A DNA stretch of 34,269 nt from Thermoplasmata archaeon (GTDB taxonomy: Archaea; Thermoplasmatota; Thermoplasmata; Lutacidiplasmatales; UBA184): positions 1-34,269 of the forward strand of contig JASHSU010000061.1 of assembly GCA_030038605.1 (NCBI GenBank). The letters are read 5' to 3'. Numbering within the stretch: the first letter of the stretch is position 1; every line of letters begins with the position of its first letter. This document shows, piece after piece, positions 26,560 to 31,498 of the stretch. The notes below the pieces were generated by a model. That model was given only the letters and a program-made list of their open reading frames with translations, was not told where the DNA came from and searched no databases. The translations under genes and the position numbers were made by a program.

Positions 26560-27459
26560 TTAGGCCTCGGACGTCCCCCGCCGCAGCGCGGTCATGGGAC
26601 CGGACTCGCGTCCCTGGAGGAGCGCCTCCGGAGGTAGACCGTTCAAGTCCAGCCCCCGCATCGGTTCGCCCAAACCGGACGAGACACGGACCAGCACCTC
26701 GGGGTCGTCGTAGTGGAGCGACGCCTCGACGATCGCGCGAGCGACCTTCATCGGGTGCTCGGCCTTGAAGATCCCGCTGCCGACGAACACGCCGTCGACC
26801 CCGAGTAAGCGGCACAGGGCCGCGTCCGCGGGCGTCGCGATCCCGCCCGCGGCGAAATTGACGACCGGTAGCCGTTTCAGCGAGCGGACCTCGTTGCAGA
26901 CGGTCTCGGAGACACGCTCCTTCTTCGCCCAGGCCCCCACGTCCTTCTTCGGCATGGCGACCAGCTCCTCGACCTCCGAGCGGATCTGGCGGATGTGCCG
27001 GACCGCCTCGACGACGTTGCCGGTCCCCGCCTCACCCTTCGTACGGACCATCGCCGCGCCCTCATCGATGCGGCGCAGGGCCTCGCCTAGGTTGCGGGCC
27101 CCGCAGACGAACGGGACCTTGAAGGCGCTCTTGTCGACGTGGGCGAACGGGTCGGCCGGTGTCAAGACCTCGGACTCGTCGATCATGTCGACGTTGAGCG
27201 CTTCCAGGATGCGGGCCTCGGCCGTGTGACCGATCCGGCACTTGGCCATGACCGGGATGGAGACGCGGTCCTCGATCTCCCGGACCTTCACAGGGTCGGC
27301 CATCCGCGCAACACCACCGGCCGCCCGGATATCCGCCGGGACGCGCTCGAGGGCCATGACGGCCACGGCGCCCGCTTCCTCCGCGATCGACGCCTGGTCG
27401 GCGGTCGTCACGTCCATGATGACCCCGCCCTGCTGCATGCGCGCGAAGCCGCGCTTCAC
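26560..27459 (-). CDS. pdxS: PdxS, pyridoxal 5'-phosphate synthase subunit (5' end uncertain)
   Basis: PdxS builds PLP from ribose 5-phosphate, glyceraldehyde 3-phosphate and ammonia from PdxT. Visible motifs are GGVIMDVT with the active aspartate, [30 protein letters not shown] with the first catalytic lysine, [24 protein letters not shown] and [10 protein letters not shown] with the second lysine. The coordinates begin at GTG 27459, the first ordinary start codon, giving 299 residues. That GTG is the valine in LVKRGFA: the same frame upstream encodes [12 protein letters not shown], which fits the conserved family N-terminus (LRxGTELxKRGF), so the true start is upstream, between about 27486 and 27512, at a non-standard codon. 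pdxT is not adjacent; a glycosyltransferase follows. Confidence 0.93.
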
Positions 27460-27534
27460 CAGCTCGGTGCCGAAGCGCAGTTTTGAGATCGGGTCCGCCG
27501 TAACGTTCCCCCCGGCGCCGGTAGGCGTCGTGAC

Positions 27535-27546
27535 GGTATAATAGAA
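27535..27546 (-). promoter_or_regulatory. TATA-like box for pdxS
   Basis: TTCTATTATACC on the minus strand, centred near 27539, predicts a transcript start near 27510-27514. That is only a few bases before the codons GTT (27504-27502) and ACG (27501-27499), which are in the pdxS frame. Confidence 0.5.
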
Positions 27547-27560
27547 CGGCGGGCGGGCGG

Positions 27561-27570
27561 GTCGTTAAAT
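27561..27570 (+). promoter_or_regulatory. TATA-like box for the thi operon
   Basis: GTCGTTAAAT, with GTTAAAT at 27564-27570, follows a GC-rich possible BRE. A start 24-28 nt downstream would fall at about 27591-27595, inside or at the P1 stem of the riboswitch, so the aptamer would begin at the very 5' end of the RNA. Confidence 0.45.
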
Positions 27571-27586
27571 GTCCAACCGGCTTCGT

Positions 27587-27686
27587 TCGCTCGCAGGGGG
27601 AGCTGGAACGGCTGAGAGGACGAGGGCAACCTCGTCGACCCCAGGAACCTGCACGGGATAATGCCCGCGAAGGGAACGCGATGCGA
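27587..27686 (+). promoter_or_regulatory. TPP riboswitch aptamer (THI element)
   Basis: The thiamine-pyrophosphate aptamer is recognisable by eye. P1 can form between 27587-27594 (TCGCTCGC) and 27678-27686, with one bulged U at 27682. P2 pairs the G-run at 27596-27600 with CCCC 27639-27642. P3 is AGCT (27601-27604) with GGCT (27610-27613), overlapping the diagnostic CTGAGA at 27612-27617. An optional P3a, GACGAGG/CCTCGTC with a GCAA tetraloop, spans 27619-27636. GGAACCTG (27644-27651), the CGGGATAATGCCCG P5 hairpin (27654-27667) and AAGGGA (27670-27675) complete the consensus. It is 36 nt before thiB, in the expected position for thiamine uptake genes. Confidence 0.95.
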
Positions 27687-27698
27687 CACGTAAGGCGA

Positions 27699-27721
27699 CT
27701 CTCCGCCGGTCCTGCGGAGGG
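27699..27721 (+). promoter_or_regulatory. Shine-Dalgarno-masking hairpin, riboswitch expression platform
   Basis: CTCTCCGC (27699-27706) can pair with GCGGAGGG (27714-27721) around a 7-nt loop, with one U-G pair. The 3' strand contains the ribosome-binding GGAGGG and ends one base before the thiB ATG. A weaker competing hairpin GGCG (27694-27697)/CGCC (27704-27707) would free it. This supports translational OFF control by TPP; which fold follows ligand binding is inferred. Confidence 0.7.
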
Positions 27722-28879
27722 ATGACCTCAGGACCCCCCACCGACCCACCCCGTCGGCGGCTCCGCGGACCCGGGAGGGCCCGGCGGCTGTTGCTCGTGA
27801 TCGTCGCTGTCGTGGTCGTGCTCGTGGCGGGCCTCGCGGTCTACACGCTCACGACCGAGGAGACCCCGACGCTGGTGATCTACACCTATCCGAGCCTGTT
27901 CGGCGGGTCGGACTGCGGGGCGACCAACTGGTCGACGGTCTTCGGGAGCTTCGAGTCGGCGCACCACATCCACATCGACGTCGAGTGTCCGGCCGGCACG
28001 CTGGCCAGCACACTACTCGCCCAGCAGAACGCCCCCGTGGCCGACCTGGTCATCGGCCTCGACGAGCTGACCGCCCCGGCGGCGGACGCGGACCATCTGC
28101 TGATACCGTACGCACCCCCGGAGCTCGCGCAGGTCTCCCCGACCCTGGTGGCGGAGCTGTCGCCGGACGACGCCGTCGTGCCCTACGAGTGGGGATTCCT
28201 CGGCATCGACTACAACAGTTCGTTCCTGAACGCGACCGACGGCGCGGTCGCCCACGCCACGTTCCCCGATTTCGTCGCCAACAGCTCGTGGGCCCGGCAA
28301 TTGCTCATCGAAGACCCTTCGGTCGACATCACCGGCGAGGAGTTTCTGGTCTGGGAGATCGAGTACTACGAGCACGTCCTGCACGAACCGTGGCAGGGGT
28401 TCTGGTCGTCGGTCCTCCCCAACCTCCCGCCGCCGGCGACCGACTGGGGCACCGCGTTCGGGGAGTTCACGAGCCCGACGCACAACCCGCAGATGGTCGT
28501 CTCCTACACGACCGACCCCGCCTACGCGGCGGCGTATGGGCAGGCCGGCGCGTACAACTCTACCGTCTCCTGGTGGAACGGGACCGCGTACGGCTGGCGC
28601 ACGATCTATGGCATCGGCATCGTTGCCGGGACGCACCACCTCGCGCTGGACGAAGCGTTCGAGAACTGGTTCCTCGGCGGCACGGTGCAGTCCCTCATCC
28701 CGCTCAACGAATGGGAGTACCCGGCGAACGGGACGATCCCGCTGCCCTCGGTCTATGACGCGGCGATCAACCCGGCGACGGTCACGCCGCTCAACGCGGA
28801 CGTGACGCCGAGCCAGGTCGCCGGCAACCTGACGGGGTGGGTCGACACGTGGCTCACGCTGGCGACCGGCGCCGGATGA
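27722..28879 (+). CDS. thiB: Thiamine ABC transporter, substrate-binding protein
   Basis: This 385-residue extracellular solute-binding protein of the ThiB type captures thiamine or its phosphates. A basic N-terminus and a strong membrane anchor (about 22-43) precede the mature start LVIYTYPSLFGG. There is no lipobox cysteine, so it is likely held by the helix. Two cysteines (in GGSDCGATNW and DVECPAG) could form a disulfide. Typical segments are DLVIGLDEL (about 103-111), VPYEWGFLGIDYN (about 156-168) and WGTAFGEF. It is the first gene after the TPP riboswitch; the ATG at 27722 sits directly after the masked GGAGGG. Its stop overlaps thiP (ATGA). Confidence 0.9.
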   Translation: MTSGPPTDPPRRRLRGPGRARRLLLVIVAVVVVLVAGLAVYTLTTEETPTLVIYTYPSLFGGSDCGATNWSTVFGSFESAHHIHIDVECPAGTLASTLLAQQNAPVADLVIGLDELTAPAADADHLLIPYAPPELAQVSPTLVAELSPDDAVVPYEWGFLGIDYNSSFLNATDGAVAHATFPDFVANSSWARQLLIEDPSVDITGEEFLVWEIEYYEHVLHEPWQGFWSSVLPNLPPPATDWGTAFGEFTSPTHNPQMVVSYTTDPAYAAAYGQAGAYNSTVSWWNGTAYGWRTIYGIGIVAGTHHLALDEAFENWFLGGTVQSLIPLNEWEYPANGTIPLPSVYDAAINPATVTPLNADVTPSQVAGNLTGWVDTWLTLATGAG

Positions 28880-30495
28880 GGACCGTCGCGCGCGACGCGC
28901 TGCCGGTCCTGCCGATCGTCGTCTTCGTCGTGCTGTTCGCCCTGCTCCCGGTCGCGGTCGTGTTCGTCACGGCCCTCGGGAACGCGGGCGGCTGGTCGGG
29001 CGTGACGTCGATCCTGGGCAGCCCGTTGAACCAGCGCGCGCTCGAGAACTCGCTCGTCCAGGGAGGGCTTTCGGCGGGGCTGGCGGTCGCGTTCGGGTAC
29101 CCGGCCGGGGTGTTCGTCGGTCGTTACACCTGGCCCGGCCGGGAGGTCGTTCGCTCCCTGCTGCTGGTCCCATTCCTCCTGCCGAGCCTGATCGTGGTCC
29201 TGGGGGTCGAGGACCTGTTCGGGGCGGGCGGCTGGGTCGTCGGGAGCCTCCCCGGCCTCGCCGTCGTCGGCCAGGGCCTTCCGGCGATCGTCGCGGCGAA
29301 CCTGGTCTTCAACGTGCCGCTGGTCGTCCTGCTGACCGCCGCGGGCACCGAAGGGGCCTCGGTGGAGCTCGAAGAGACCGTCCGGACCCTGGGCGGCGCT
29401 CCGGCCCGGGCCTATTGGGACGCCTGGGGCCGGCCGACCTGGGTCGGAGCGGCGGCGGGCGGATTCCTCACTTTCCTGTTCTCGGCGCTTTCGTTCGCGC
29501 CCCCGCTGTTGCTGTGCGGACCGCGCTGCTACACGGTCGAGGCCCGCATCTGGTCCCTGGACCAGATCCTCCTCTCACCGAACGAGGCCGGCGTCCTCGC
29601 CGCGGCGATGGTCGTAATCTTCCTGCTACCGGCCCTGGGCTATCTCGTCCTGGTCCGTCGGCTGGCTCGACCGACCGGGACTCGGGTCCGTCGCCCGCTG
29701 CCCTGGTCCGGTTCGCCCGTGGTCGTGGCGCTCGCCGTCGAGACGGCCACGGTCCTGTTGGCCGTCGTCGCCCTGCTCGGGGCCGTCCTGGCCCGGACAC
29801 TGCTCCCGACCGGTGGAGGCAGTGAGGGCTCCGCCTGGGACTTACTGTTCGGACCGGCGACGGCCCAGCGGCTCGGCGTCACCGTTCCCACGACGATCCT
29901 GAACACGTTCGTCTTTGCCACCGCAGCGGCCGGGATCGCGGTGGTCCTGGCCGTCCCCGCCGCCTACGCCGTGCTCCGGCGGCCGGCCCGGGGGCCCACC
30001 CTCGGGCTCGTTCTGTTCGTCCCCCTCCTGCTTTCGCCCGTCGTCCTGGCCCTCTCCCTGGCGACGTTCTGGCGACCTCTCCTCGGGGGGTCCGGGTCGG
30101 TCTGGGTGCTGGTGATCGTAAGTCAGGCCGTTCTCGCCCTGCCGTTCGCGCTCCAGAGTCTCGGACTCCCGCTCAGCTCGTTGACCGCCGCGGGTCGAGA
30201 GTCGGCGCAATCCCTCGGAGCCAGCCGGTTCGCCGCGTTCCTGGATGCCGACCTGCCCCGGGTCCGCGGCGGGCTGACCACCGCCGCGTTGTTCGCCTTC
30301 GCCCTCGGTCTCGGCGAGTTCACCGCGACGTACTTCCTCGTCACCCCACGGTTCACGACGGTCCCGGTGGCGCTGTACGGGTTGATCGGGGCCCGACAGT
30401 TCGCCGCGGCGGACGCGGCCGCCGGCTTGCTGCTGCTGCTCAGCGTCGCGGTGTTCCTCGCCCTCACGGTCGGAGGTCGGCGTGTCGAGCTCTGA
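28876..30495 (+). CDS. thiP: Thiamine ABC transporter, fused permease
   Basis: This 539-residue permease has about twelve membrane segments and two BPD-type transport domains. Each has an EAA loop that docks the ATPase: ETVRTLGGAPARAYWDAW (about 173-190) and AQSLGASRFAAFLDADLP (about 444-461). The duplicated layout is that of ThiP and the related iron permease FbpB; the riboswitch upstream decides for thiamine. The ATG at 28876 overlaps the thiB stop (ATGA), which I prefer to the earlier ATG at 28837 that would start inside thiB without a ribosome site. It overlaps thiQ by 14 nt. Confidence 0.92.
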   Translation: MRTVARDALPVLPIVVFVVLFALLPVAVVFVTALGNAGGWSGVTSILGSPLNQRALENSLVQGGLSAGLAVAFGYPAGVFVGRYTWPGREVVRSLLLVPFLLPSLIVVLGVEDLFGAGGWVVGSLPGLAVVGQGLPAIVAANLVFNVPLVVLLTAAGTEGASVELEETVRTLGGAPARAYWDAWGRPTWVGAAAGGFLTFLFSALSFAPPLLLCGPRCYTVEARIWSLDQILLSPNEAGVLAAAMVVIFLLPALGYLVLVRRLARPTGTRVRRPLPWSGSPVVVALAVETATVLLAVVALLGAVLARTLLPTGGGSEGSAWDLLFGPATAQRLGVTVPTTILNTFVFATAAAGIAVVLAVPAAYAVLRRPARGPTLGLVLFVPLLLSPVVLALSLATFWRPLLGGSGSVWVLVIVSQAVLALPFALQSLGLPLSSLTAAGRESAQSLGASRFAAFLDADLPRVRGGLTTAALFAFALGLGEFTATYFLVTPRFTTVPVALYGLIGARQFAAADAAAGLLLLLSVAVFLALTVGGRRVEL

Positions 30496-31494
30496 TCCCG
30501 TGCTCCGGGTGGAGGGGCTCTCGGCGGCCTGGGGCCCCGCGCCGGTCCTCGACCGAGTCTCGTTCGACGTCGGACCGGGCGAGATGTTCGTCCTCCTGGG
30601 CCCGAACGGGAGCGGGAAGACGACGCTCCTCCGTTGCGTCGTCGGGCTCGAACGTCCGACCGGCGGTCGGGTGCGGTTGGACGGTGTCGACGTGCTCGGG
30701 CAGCCCGTTCACCGCCGGGGGATCGGGCTCATGTTGCAGGAGGCGGCCCTCTTCCCTCACCGGACGGTGGCCGAGAACATCGCCTACGCGCCGCTCCTCC
30801 AGCACCGGGGACGGACGGAGGTCGAGGAGGAGGTCGCTCGGCAGGTGGAGCTGGTCGGACTGACCGGATTCGAGGACCGACGGCCCGACCAGCTCTCGGG
30901 CGGGGAACGTCAGCGGGTCGCCCTCGCCCGCACCCTGGCGGCCCGGCCCCGGCTGGTCCTCCTCGACGAACCGTTCGCCGCGATCGACCCCGAGCGCAAG
31001 GCCGACCTGCGCGCGGAGTTTCGCCGAGTGCTCCGGGCCGCCGGCATCAGTTCCGTCCTCGTCACCCACGACCGGCCCGAAGGGCTGTTCCTCGGGGACC
31101 GGGTCGGCGTGCTGTTCGACGGTCGGCTGGAGCGCGTCGGCCCGCCGGCCGCCGTCTTTGAGGACCCCGGGACCGACCGGGTCGCCCGATTCCTGGGCTA
31201 CAATGTCGTGGATGGGCCCTCGGGCCCGGAGGCGGTCGACCCGCGGGACCTGCGGCTCGGCCCCCCGGCGTCCGGTGCGTGGGACGCTGAGGTGCTCGCG
31301 GCGGGTATCACGGGAGCGGAGCGACTGGTGCTCCTGCAGGGCTCGGCGGGGCGGCGATACGAGGCCCGGGGACCTCCGGCGGGCCCGCTGCCGCGGGTGG
31401 GCGAGCGGGTCGGGGTTCGTTGGGAGCGCTCGATCCGCCTGCGAGAGTCTCCCACGGCCAAAGAGGCCAAGAACGAGCCGGGATTGAACCCGGC

Positions 31495-31498
<4 letters not shown>
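30482..31498 (+). CDS. thiQ: Thiamine ABC transporter, ATP-binding protein
   Basis: This 338-residue ABC ATPase powers the importer. Walker A is GPNGSGKTTL (about 40-49), signature LSGGERQRVALARTL (about 138-152), Walker B LVLLDEP (about 159-165) and H-loop VTHDRPE (about 195-201). A C-terminal regulatory beta domain of about 100 residues (TOBE-like, with DPRDLRLGPP) makes it longer than bacterial ThiQ and like PotA/CysA-type ATPases. GTG 30482 is preceded at 4 nt by GGAGGT and overlaps thiP by 14 nt. The last codons form part of a hairpin just before the aconitase ATG, with which it overlaps by ATGA. Confidence 0.92.
31477..31494 (+). promoter_or_regulatory. 6-bp GC hairpin directly before the aconitase start codon
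   Basis: GCCGGG (31477-31482) and CCCGGC (31489-31494) form a perfect stem around the loop ATTGAA. The stem ends one base before the ATG at 31495 and lies inside the end of thiQ. There is no Shine-Dalgarno sequence here, so initiation probably depends on ribosomes that have translated thiQ and opened the stem. Confidence 0.45.

Follow-up and report, generated by a model that had tools for sequence, protein, structure and literature searches.

Transcriptional control is common among bacterial TPP riboswitches. In translational TPP riboswitches of the E. coli thiM type, an anti-Shine-Dalgarno (anti-SD) strand takes either the Shine-Dalgarno (SD) sequence or a strand of the aptamer as its partner; switching proceeds via the P1 region and there is no leader ORF. 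The classic paper on the THI element, family RF00059 of Rfam, is reportedly that of Rodionov et al. from 2002. No mechanism of an archaeal TPP riboswitch was found in the literature searched. Two further systems are relevant for comparison. The B12 riboswitch of Mycobacterium tuberculosis ppe2 has a leader ORF with an AUGA overlap, and translation of this ORF is essential for PPE2 expression (PMC11260477). Reinitiation at overlapping stop and start codons is strictly coupled in most tested gene pairs of Haloferax and E. coli (Huber et al., 2019, PMC6728339).

The locus described here lies in a 34,269-nucleotide stretch of DNA, hereafter the window, from a soil archaeon of the Thermoplasmata that belongs to the Lutacidiplasmatales, an order described in PMC9287336. 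It shares with the THI element the core motifs, the P2-P5 architecture, an above-cut-off score and a downstream thiamine-transport gene, but differs in that P1 is cut to 2 bp where the RNA is predicted to begin, a start codon lies 5 nt beyond the aptamer and a leader ORF is present. Thermoplasmatales-type aptamers are similar in having a start codon 2-8 nt past the AGGG that closes P4; they end in GGAGGGA, a better SD, and the ORF behind them is often the transporter itself, whereas the window combines a weaker AGGGA with a leader ORF of 14 codons and an anti-SD hairpin. The thiM type resembles the locus in the alternative partners proposed for the anti-SD and differs in lacking a leader ORF. 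The ppe2 riboswitch has in common the ligand-OFF direction, the leader ORF, the AUGA overlap and termination-reinitiation, which are experimental in ppe2 and inferred here; its ligand is B12 and its host a bacterium, as opposed to TPP and an archaeon. The pairs of Huber et al. include the same archaeal ATGA overlap, but are ordinary gene pairs with no riboswitch.

The TPP aptamer, its promoter and its distribution

A search with cmscan matched RF00059 at 27586-27693 on the plus strand over the full length of the model, with a score of 60.3 bits (E 1.3e-9) against a gathering cut-off of 54.3 bits. This is the sole above-cut-off Rfam match within the window, and no further TPP element was found in the 77%-complete source genome. 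The motifs from which the initial annotation had called a TPP aptamer are all present, namely CTGAGA, the P3a hairpin GACGAGG-GCAA-CCTCGTC with its GCAA loop (27619-27636), GGAACCTG, GGGATAATGCCC and AAGGGA, and the Infernal check that it had proposed bears out the call. The Rfam model contains P3a, which had been taken for an extra arm, as an optional helix. The aptamer closes with AGGGA (27671-27675), of which AGG pairs with CCU (27648-27650) in P4. By its family, and with the thiB-like thiamine-transport gene that RF00059 gene context calls for, the element upstream of thiBPQ is a genuine riboswitch of the vitamin B1 (TPP) class, with TPP as its predicted ligand.

The aptamer is flanked by a divergent pdxS gene (26560-27459, minus strand; NF003215 467 bits and TIGR00343 449 bits, both over cut-off) and a plus-strand ABC transporter operon of thiB-like, thiP-like and thiQ-like genes. 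The thiB-like gene (27722-28879), for a thiamine-binding protein, matches TIGR01254 (E 6e-23; 81.5 bits, under the cut-off of 93.4) and the thiB model TIGR01276 (E 1e-11). The thiP-like permease gene (28876-30495) matches ThiP models under cut-off (E 2e-22), and the thiQ-like ABC ATPase gene (30482-31498) matches PF00005 (E 2e-36). The identities of thiB and thiP are thus putative, at significant yet sub-cut-off model scores. The stop codon of thiB overlaps the thiP start ATG at 28876 as ATGA (28876-28879). The thiP and thiQ genes overlap by 14 nt (30482-30495), and GGAGGT precedes the GTG of thiQ. A divergent pdxS lies less than 600 nt from the aptamer in 42 of the 52 relatives with sufficient upstream sequence.

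Of 106 genomes of the order, 97 have a TPP riboswitch, as do 159 of the 350 from the class Thermoplasmata with a completeness of at least 80%, so the family call is ordinary and its taxonomic novelty small. The initial view of a taxonomically unusual archaeal riboswitch is correspondingly weak, the host belonging to the same class as Thermoplasma. The closest ThiB proteins found come from Thermoplasmata MAGs (79-82% identity). ThiC was found in three of the 106 genomes of the order, one of them as a 62-residue fragment, and this scarcity fits a reliance on imported thiamine or its precursors, although most genomes are incomplete. The two genomes with a full-length ThiC both come from a family (f3) in which no TPP riboswitch match was found; the majority of the remaining genomes show the reverse, a riboswitch but no ThiC.

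For comparison, 160 aptamer loci were reduced to 98 distinct leaders and aligned. Positions are counted from P, the first base of GGGGAG in the 5' strand of P2 (27597 in the window), and from b, the first base past AGGGA (27676). Changes were counted on a ThiB tree of 96 sequences. In the relatives, the limits of the ThiB peptide and ORF were taken from the frame with an NTG at +43 to +52, and some starts may be misplaced.

The 98 leaders share an A+T block at P-33 to P-28, with an A+T fraction of 0.62-0.94 compared with about 0.2 in the surroundings. The TATA-like box GTTAAAT (27564-27570, plus strand), already picked out in the initial annotation, coincides with this block, which keeps the same distance throughout. 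A purine pair at P-37/-36 is AA in about 65% of leaders and GG in the window. Together the two elements match, as expected, a BRE and a TATA box. Transcription is predicted to start at the G at P-4 (27593), 26 nt downstream of the TATA centre; P-4 is G in 87% of the 98 leaders, mostly with C before it. Because the promoter stands at a fixed distance, the 5' end of the RNA is expected about 4 nt before P2, and the earlier suggestion that the aptamer sits at the RNA 5' end with almost no lead would hold across the order, where this predicted start is conserved. A sigma-70-like match within the aptamer was set aside, as the host is archaeal and BRE and TATA are conserved upstream.

The closing helix P1 is minimal, comprising 2 bp (27593-27594 with 27678-27679). 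The outer pair, P-4 with b+3, covaries, being GC in 82, TA in 3, TG in 3 and CG in 2 of the 98 leaders, and support extends to these 2 bp only. A P1 formed by AUGC/GCA pairing was dropped, given that T stands at P-2 in about 35% of leaders with the T of the start codon unchanged.

A leader ORF behind the aptamer and a reading frame through it

Between the aptamer and thiB lies a 14-codon ORF, ORF B (MRHVRRLSAGPAEG*, 27681-27725, plus strand), whose TGA overlaps the thiB ATG as ATGA. Of the 98 leaders, 93 have an NTG at exactly b+5, 5 nt past AGGGA; the tree's 96 leaders include 86 with ATG, 6 with GTG and 1 with TTG. Where the TG is kept, the base before it varies among A, G and T alone, a start-codon-like pattern. 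The three NTG columns have undergone 3-4 changes each, compared with 18 in each flanking column and 26-36 in columns b+9 to b+14. The AGGGA ahead of it would be a weak SD. No conservation of the ORF B peptide was found, the codon test failing to favour its frame, and no peptide function is therefore claimed.

The end of ORF B is tied to thiB. ORF B usually has 13-15 codons, and the thiB start lies in phase with it, at offset 43, 46 or 49, in 76 leaders, 69 of which have NTGA, the window included; NTGA occurs in none of the 17 out-of-phase leaders (offset 45 or 50). The association is strong by Fisher test (p 2e-13), which, like the Mann-Whitney tests used here, ignores the relatedness of leaders; on phylogenetically independent pairs about three are concordant and none discordant, too few for significance. 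The thiB offset must have changed no fewer than 15 times over the whole tree, and 6 times among the in-phase leaders alone. A conserved start after the aptamer and an overlap with the main start codon are the marks of a ppe2-like upstream ORF. Across nearly 100 relatives, ORF B appears to be a conserved mini-gene that had gone unnoticed and that in most cases stops on the start codon of the transporter gene. Four leaders without the b+5 start codon still have the aptamer and thiB, and one leader from another family of the order (L084) has a start codon at b+4 only.

A second frame, frame A, is open through the 3' half of the aptamer. In the window it contains a mini-ORF that starts in loop L5 (MPAKGTRCDT*, 27661-27693, plus strand) and stops just inside ORF B. 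A raw count finds this stop at b+15, b+18 or b+21, in one phase, in 92 of the 98 leaders, and in 89 it is the first stop from L5. At b+15, T is present in 77 leaders; 75 of these read TAA, TAG or TGA and none reads TGG, and the stop type has changed among the three at least 29 times on the tree. At aptamer position -6 the Rfam consensus has U, which would give UAG in frame A; 96 of the 98 leaders have A or C there, and in the two with T, and hence an in-frame UAG, the downstream stop is not the first. In leader L077 the stop has shifted to a TGA that overlaps the ORF B start. The pattern suggests translation through the aptamer's 3' half and is partly lineage structure. In three leaders neither the ORF B start nor the frame-A stop is in its usual place, as if the two had been lost together, and L142 keeps of these features the TTG alone.

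These observations raise the alternative that the aptamer itself is translated. A frame-A ribosome would enter in or before the aptamer, at a GTG or ATG after GGGGAG in some lineages and at the L5 AUG in others, would end inside ORF B and hand over there, and TPP binding would compete with its transit. The single-phase stop, its many changes that bypass TGG, the avoidance of UAG at position -6 and the shifted stop of L077 all point this way, as does the distribution of possible starts: of the 54 leaders with an open frame, 37 have a frame-A ATG or GTG in the P3 region, compared with 1 of the 37 with a closed one, and L5 is ATG in all 37 of the latter, an association that is not significant on independent pairs. 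The L5 AUG is, however, also common simply as aptamer sequence, no clear SD was seen ahead of it, and five leaders of one genus have no ATG or GTG start in frame A. Translation of the aptamer is accordingly a tentative alternative, with the odds leaning against it. Its fuller form, in which the TPP aptamer would double as coding sequence and the overlapping mini-ORFs A and B would relay reading frames into thiB, with TPP set against ribosome passage, is just as tentative.

Anti-SD pairing and folding of the expression platform

The anti-SD CTCTCCGC (27699-27706) is complementary to the thiB SD arm GCGGAGGG (27714-27721). The GGAGGG run of this arm (27716-27721) directly abuts the ATG at 27722, and the single intervening base of the initial annotation is not there. 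The 8-bp hairpin formed by the two arms, which that annotation had described, is real in the sense that it has a predicted probability of about 0.97 with the aptamer forced and the RNA ending at 27726, and of 0.70 without constraint; with 14-34 nt of additional coding RNA its place in the predicted fold is taken by other pairings that largely bury the SD, one of them GGTCCTG/CAGGACC, whose loop holds the ATG. The proposed comparison of folds with and without the aptamer thus gives a difference for the short RNA, but in longer RNAs the SD is largely buried regardless. Since every modelled state, aptamer present or not, has the thiB SD largely paired, the masking hairpin alone leaves the action of TPP unexplained. 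The initial reading is supported on control of thiB and on an anti-SD hairpin; it was incomplete, and it omitted two parts to which the alignments point, the leader ORF and a possible second partner of the anti-SD in the aptamer.

The evidence for the hairpin is comparative, because against shuffles of the same composition the 179-nt leader as a whole does not stand out in stability (z = -1.5). As the pairing register differs between lineages and covariation in any single register is only moderate, a register-free swap test was adopted. Duplexes between a leader's own anti-SD and SD average -13.3 kcal/mol, compared with -10.8 kcal/mol for arms swapped between species, and none of 300 swaps equals the native pairing (z -11). 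The anti-SD and SD covary, as sequestration of the SD calls for.

The CTCTC at the 5' end of the anti-SD (27699-27703) is the proposed switching element. It is found in 43 of 93 leaders including the window's, in 40 of them at b+23, and is retained where the SD arm differs. The proposed alternative partner is the complementary GAGAG of CTGAGAGG in the aptamer core (27614-27618), and the two are paired in the predicted ligand-free fold of RNAs ending at 27740 and 27760. The 50 leaders without CTCTC have strong complementarity to the 5' strand of P2/P3, averaging -21.7 kcal/mol compared with -14.2 kcal/mol in those with CTCTC (p 5e-11), and the tree requires 11 or more changes of the CTCTC state. 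Complementarity of the anti-SD to the aptamer has a z of -5.4 for the P3 5' strand and -1.8 for the whole P2/P3 strand. A possible mutually exclusive pairing of the anti-SD with the aptamer is weakly indicated in the window itself (-13.3 vs -15.0 kcal/mol). The ORF B leucine codon at the CTCTC site is CTC in 40 of 40 leaders with thiB at +46, which argues for a constraint at the RNA level.

A rival reading is a plain anti-SD/anti-anti-SD switch, in which TPP would determine only whether the anti-SD pairs with the thiB SD or with the aptamer and both ORF B and the frame-A stop would be incidental. The covarying anti-SD, the complementary aptamer strand in both leader types and the predicted GAGAG/CTCTC pairing of the free window RNA speak for it. 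It leaves unexplained the NTG in a fixed place, with its A>G>T variation amid variable neighbours, as well as the recurrent exchange of one stop codon for another, and the window's thiB SD is largely paired whichever state is modelled. This simpler switch is therefore considered unlikely. Control by TPP-dependent termination of the leader, the frequent bacterial mode, is highly improbable, as conservation of the platform runs up to the SD and start codon of thiB and no intrinsic terminator with a U-run was found in 27450-27800.

A candidate switching mechanism and its place in the class

The favoured reading, given a probability of roughly 60% from the sequence comparisons, is a TPP-responsive translational OFF switch on thiBPQ that is coupled through ORF B. 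Without TPP, the aptamer would capture the anti-SD, through GAGAG in the window and through the 5' strand of P2/P3 in many relatives. Ribosomes would then initiate ORF B, pass the hairpin, terminate at the TGA and start again on the thiB ATG that overlaps it, and the thiB/thiP ATGA overlap would extend the coupling onward. With TPP bound, the AGG ahead of ORF B, part of its ribosome site, would stay held in P4 and ORF B would not be initiated; the folded aptamer would also free the anti-SD, so that the thiB SD would be masked and thiB not initiated. Coupling via ORF B is favoured because folding by itself shows no TPP-dependent exposure of the thiB SD. The scheme assumes that the ORF B site opens when TPP is absent, since RNAfold keeps the AGG mostly paired in P4 in the free state too. 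Sequence comparison establishes the identity of the aptamer, the conserved start and stop positions and the covariation of the anti-SD, whereas the transcription start, translation of ORFs A and B, their coupling and the response to TPP are predictions.

Elsewhere in the class, 86 distinct aptamers outside the window's family had a clear end and main ORF. In 37 of them the main gene starts 2-8 nt past the aptamer, which in these cases ends in GGAGGGA or GGAGGAA. Another 25 have a leader ORF ending near the main start, by a loose criterion with an uncalibrated chance rate (at least 8 codons, stop at -12 to +8 nt of the main start), and 24 show neither arrangement. Eleven class leaders have a GCAGGA-like SD followed by ATGnnTCCTGC, so that their anti-SD may lie inside the main gene. 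In four leaders of family f18 the aptamer ends in GCGTAGGGA, the platform CCTGAGGA(G/A)TC precedes the start, and the b+5 start codon is absent; these may represent a third platform type.

The riboswitch family is already known, and the leader architecture appears new relative to the searchable literature. Archaeal riboswitch mechanisms are poorly documented, and related aptamers exist in culturable Thermoplasmatales, which makes the mechanism testable. Annotation of such a locus as an aptamer plus a hairpin can overlook the coding parts of the leader. If the ORF B-coupled switch is true, the ribosome site of a leader ORF would lie within the ligand-binding RNA, and a conserved stop/start overlap would relay the decision to the transporter throughout the order.
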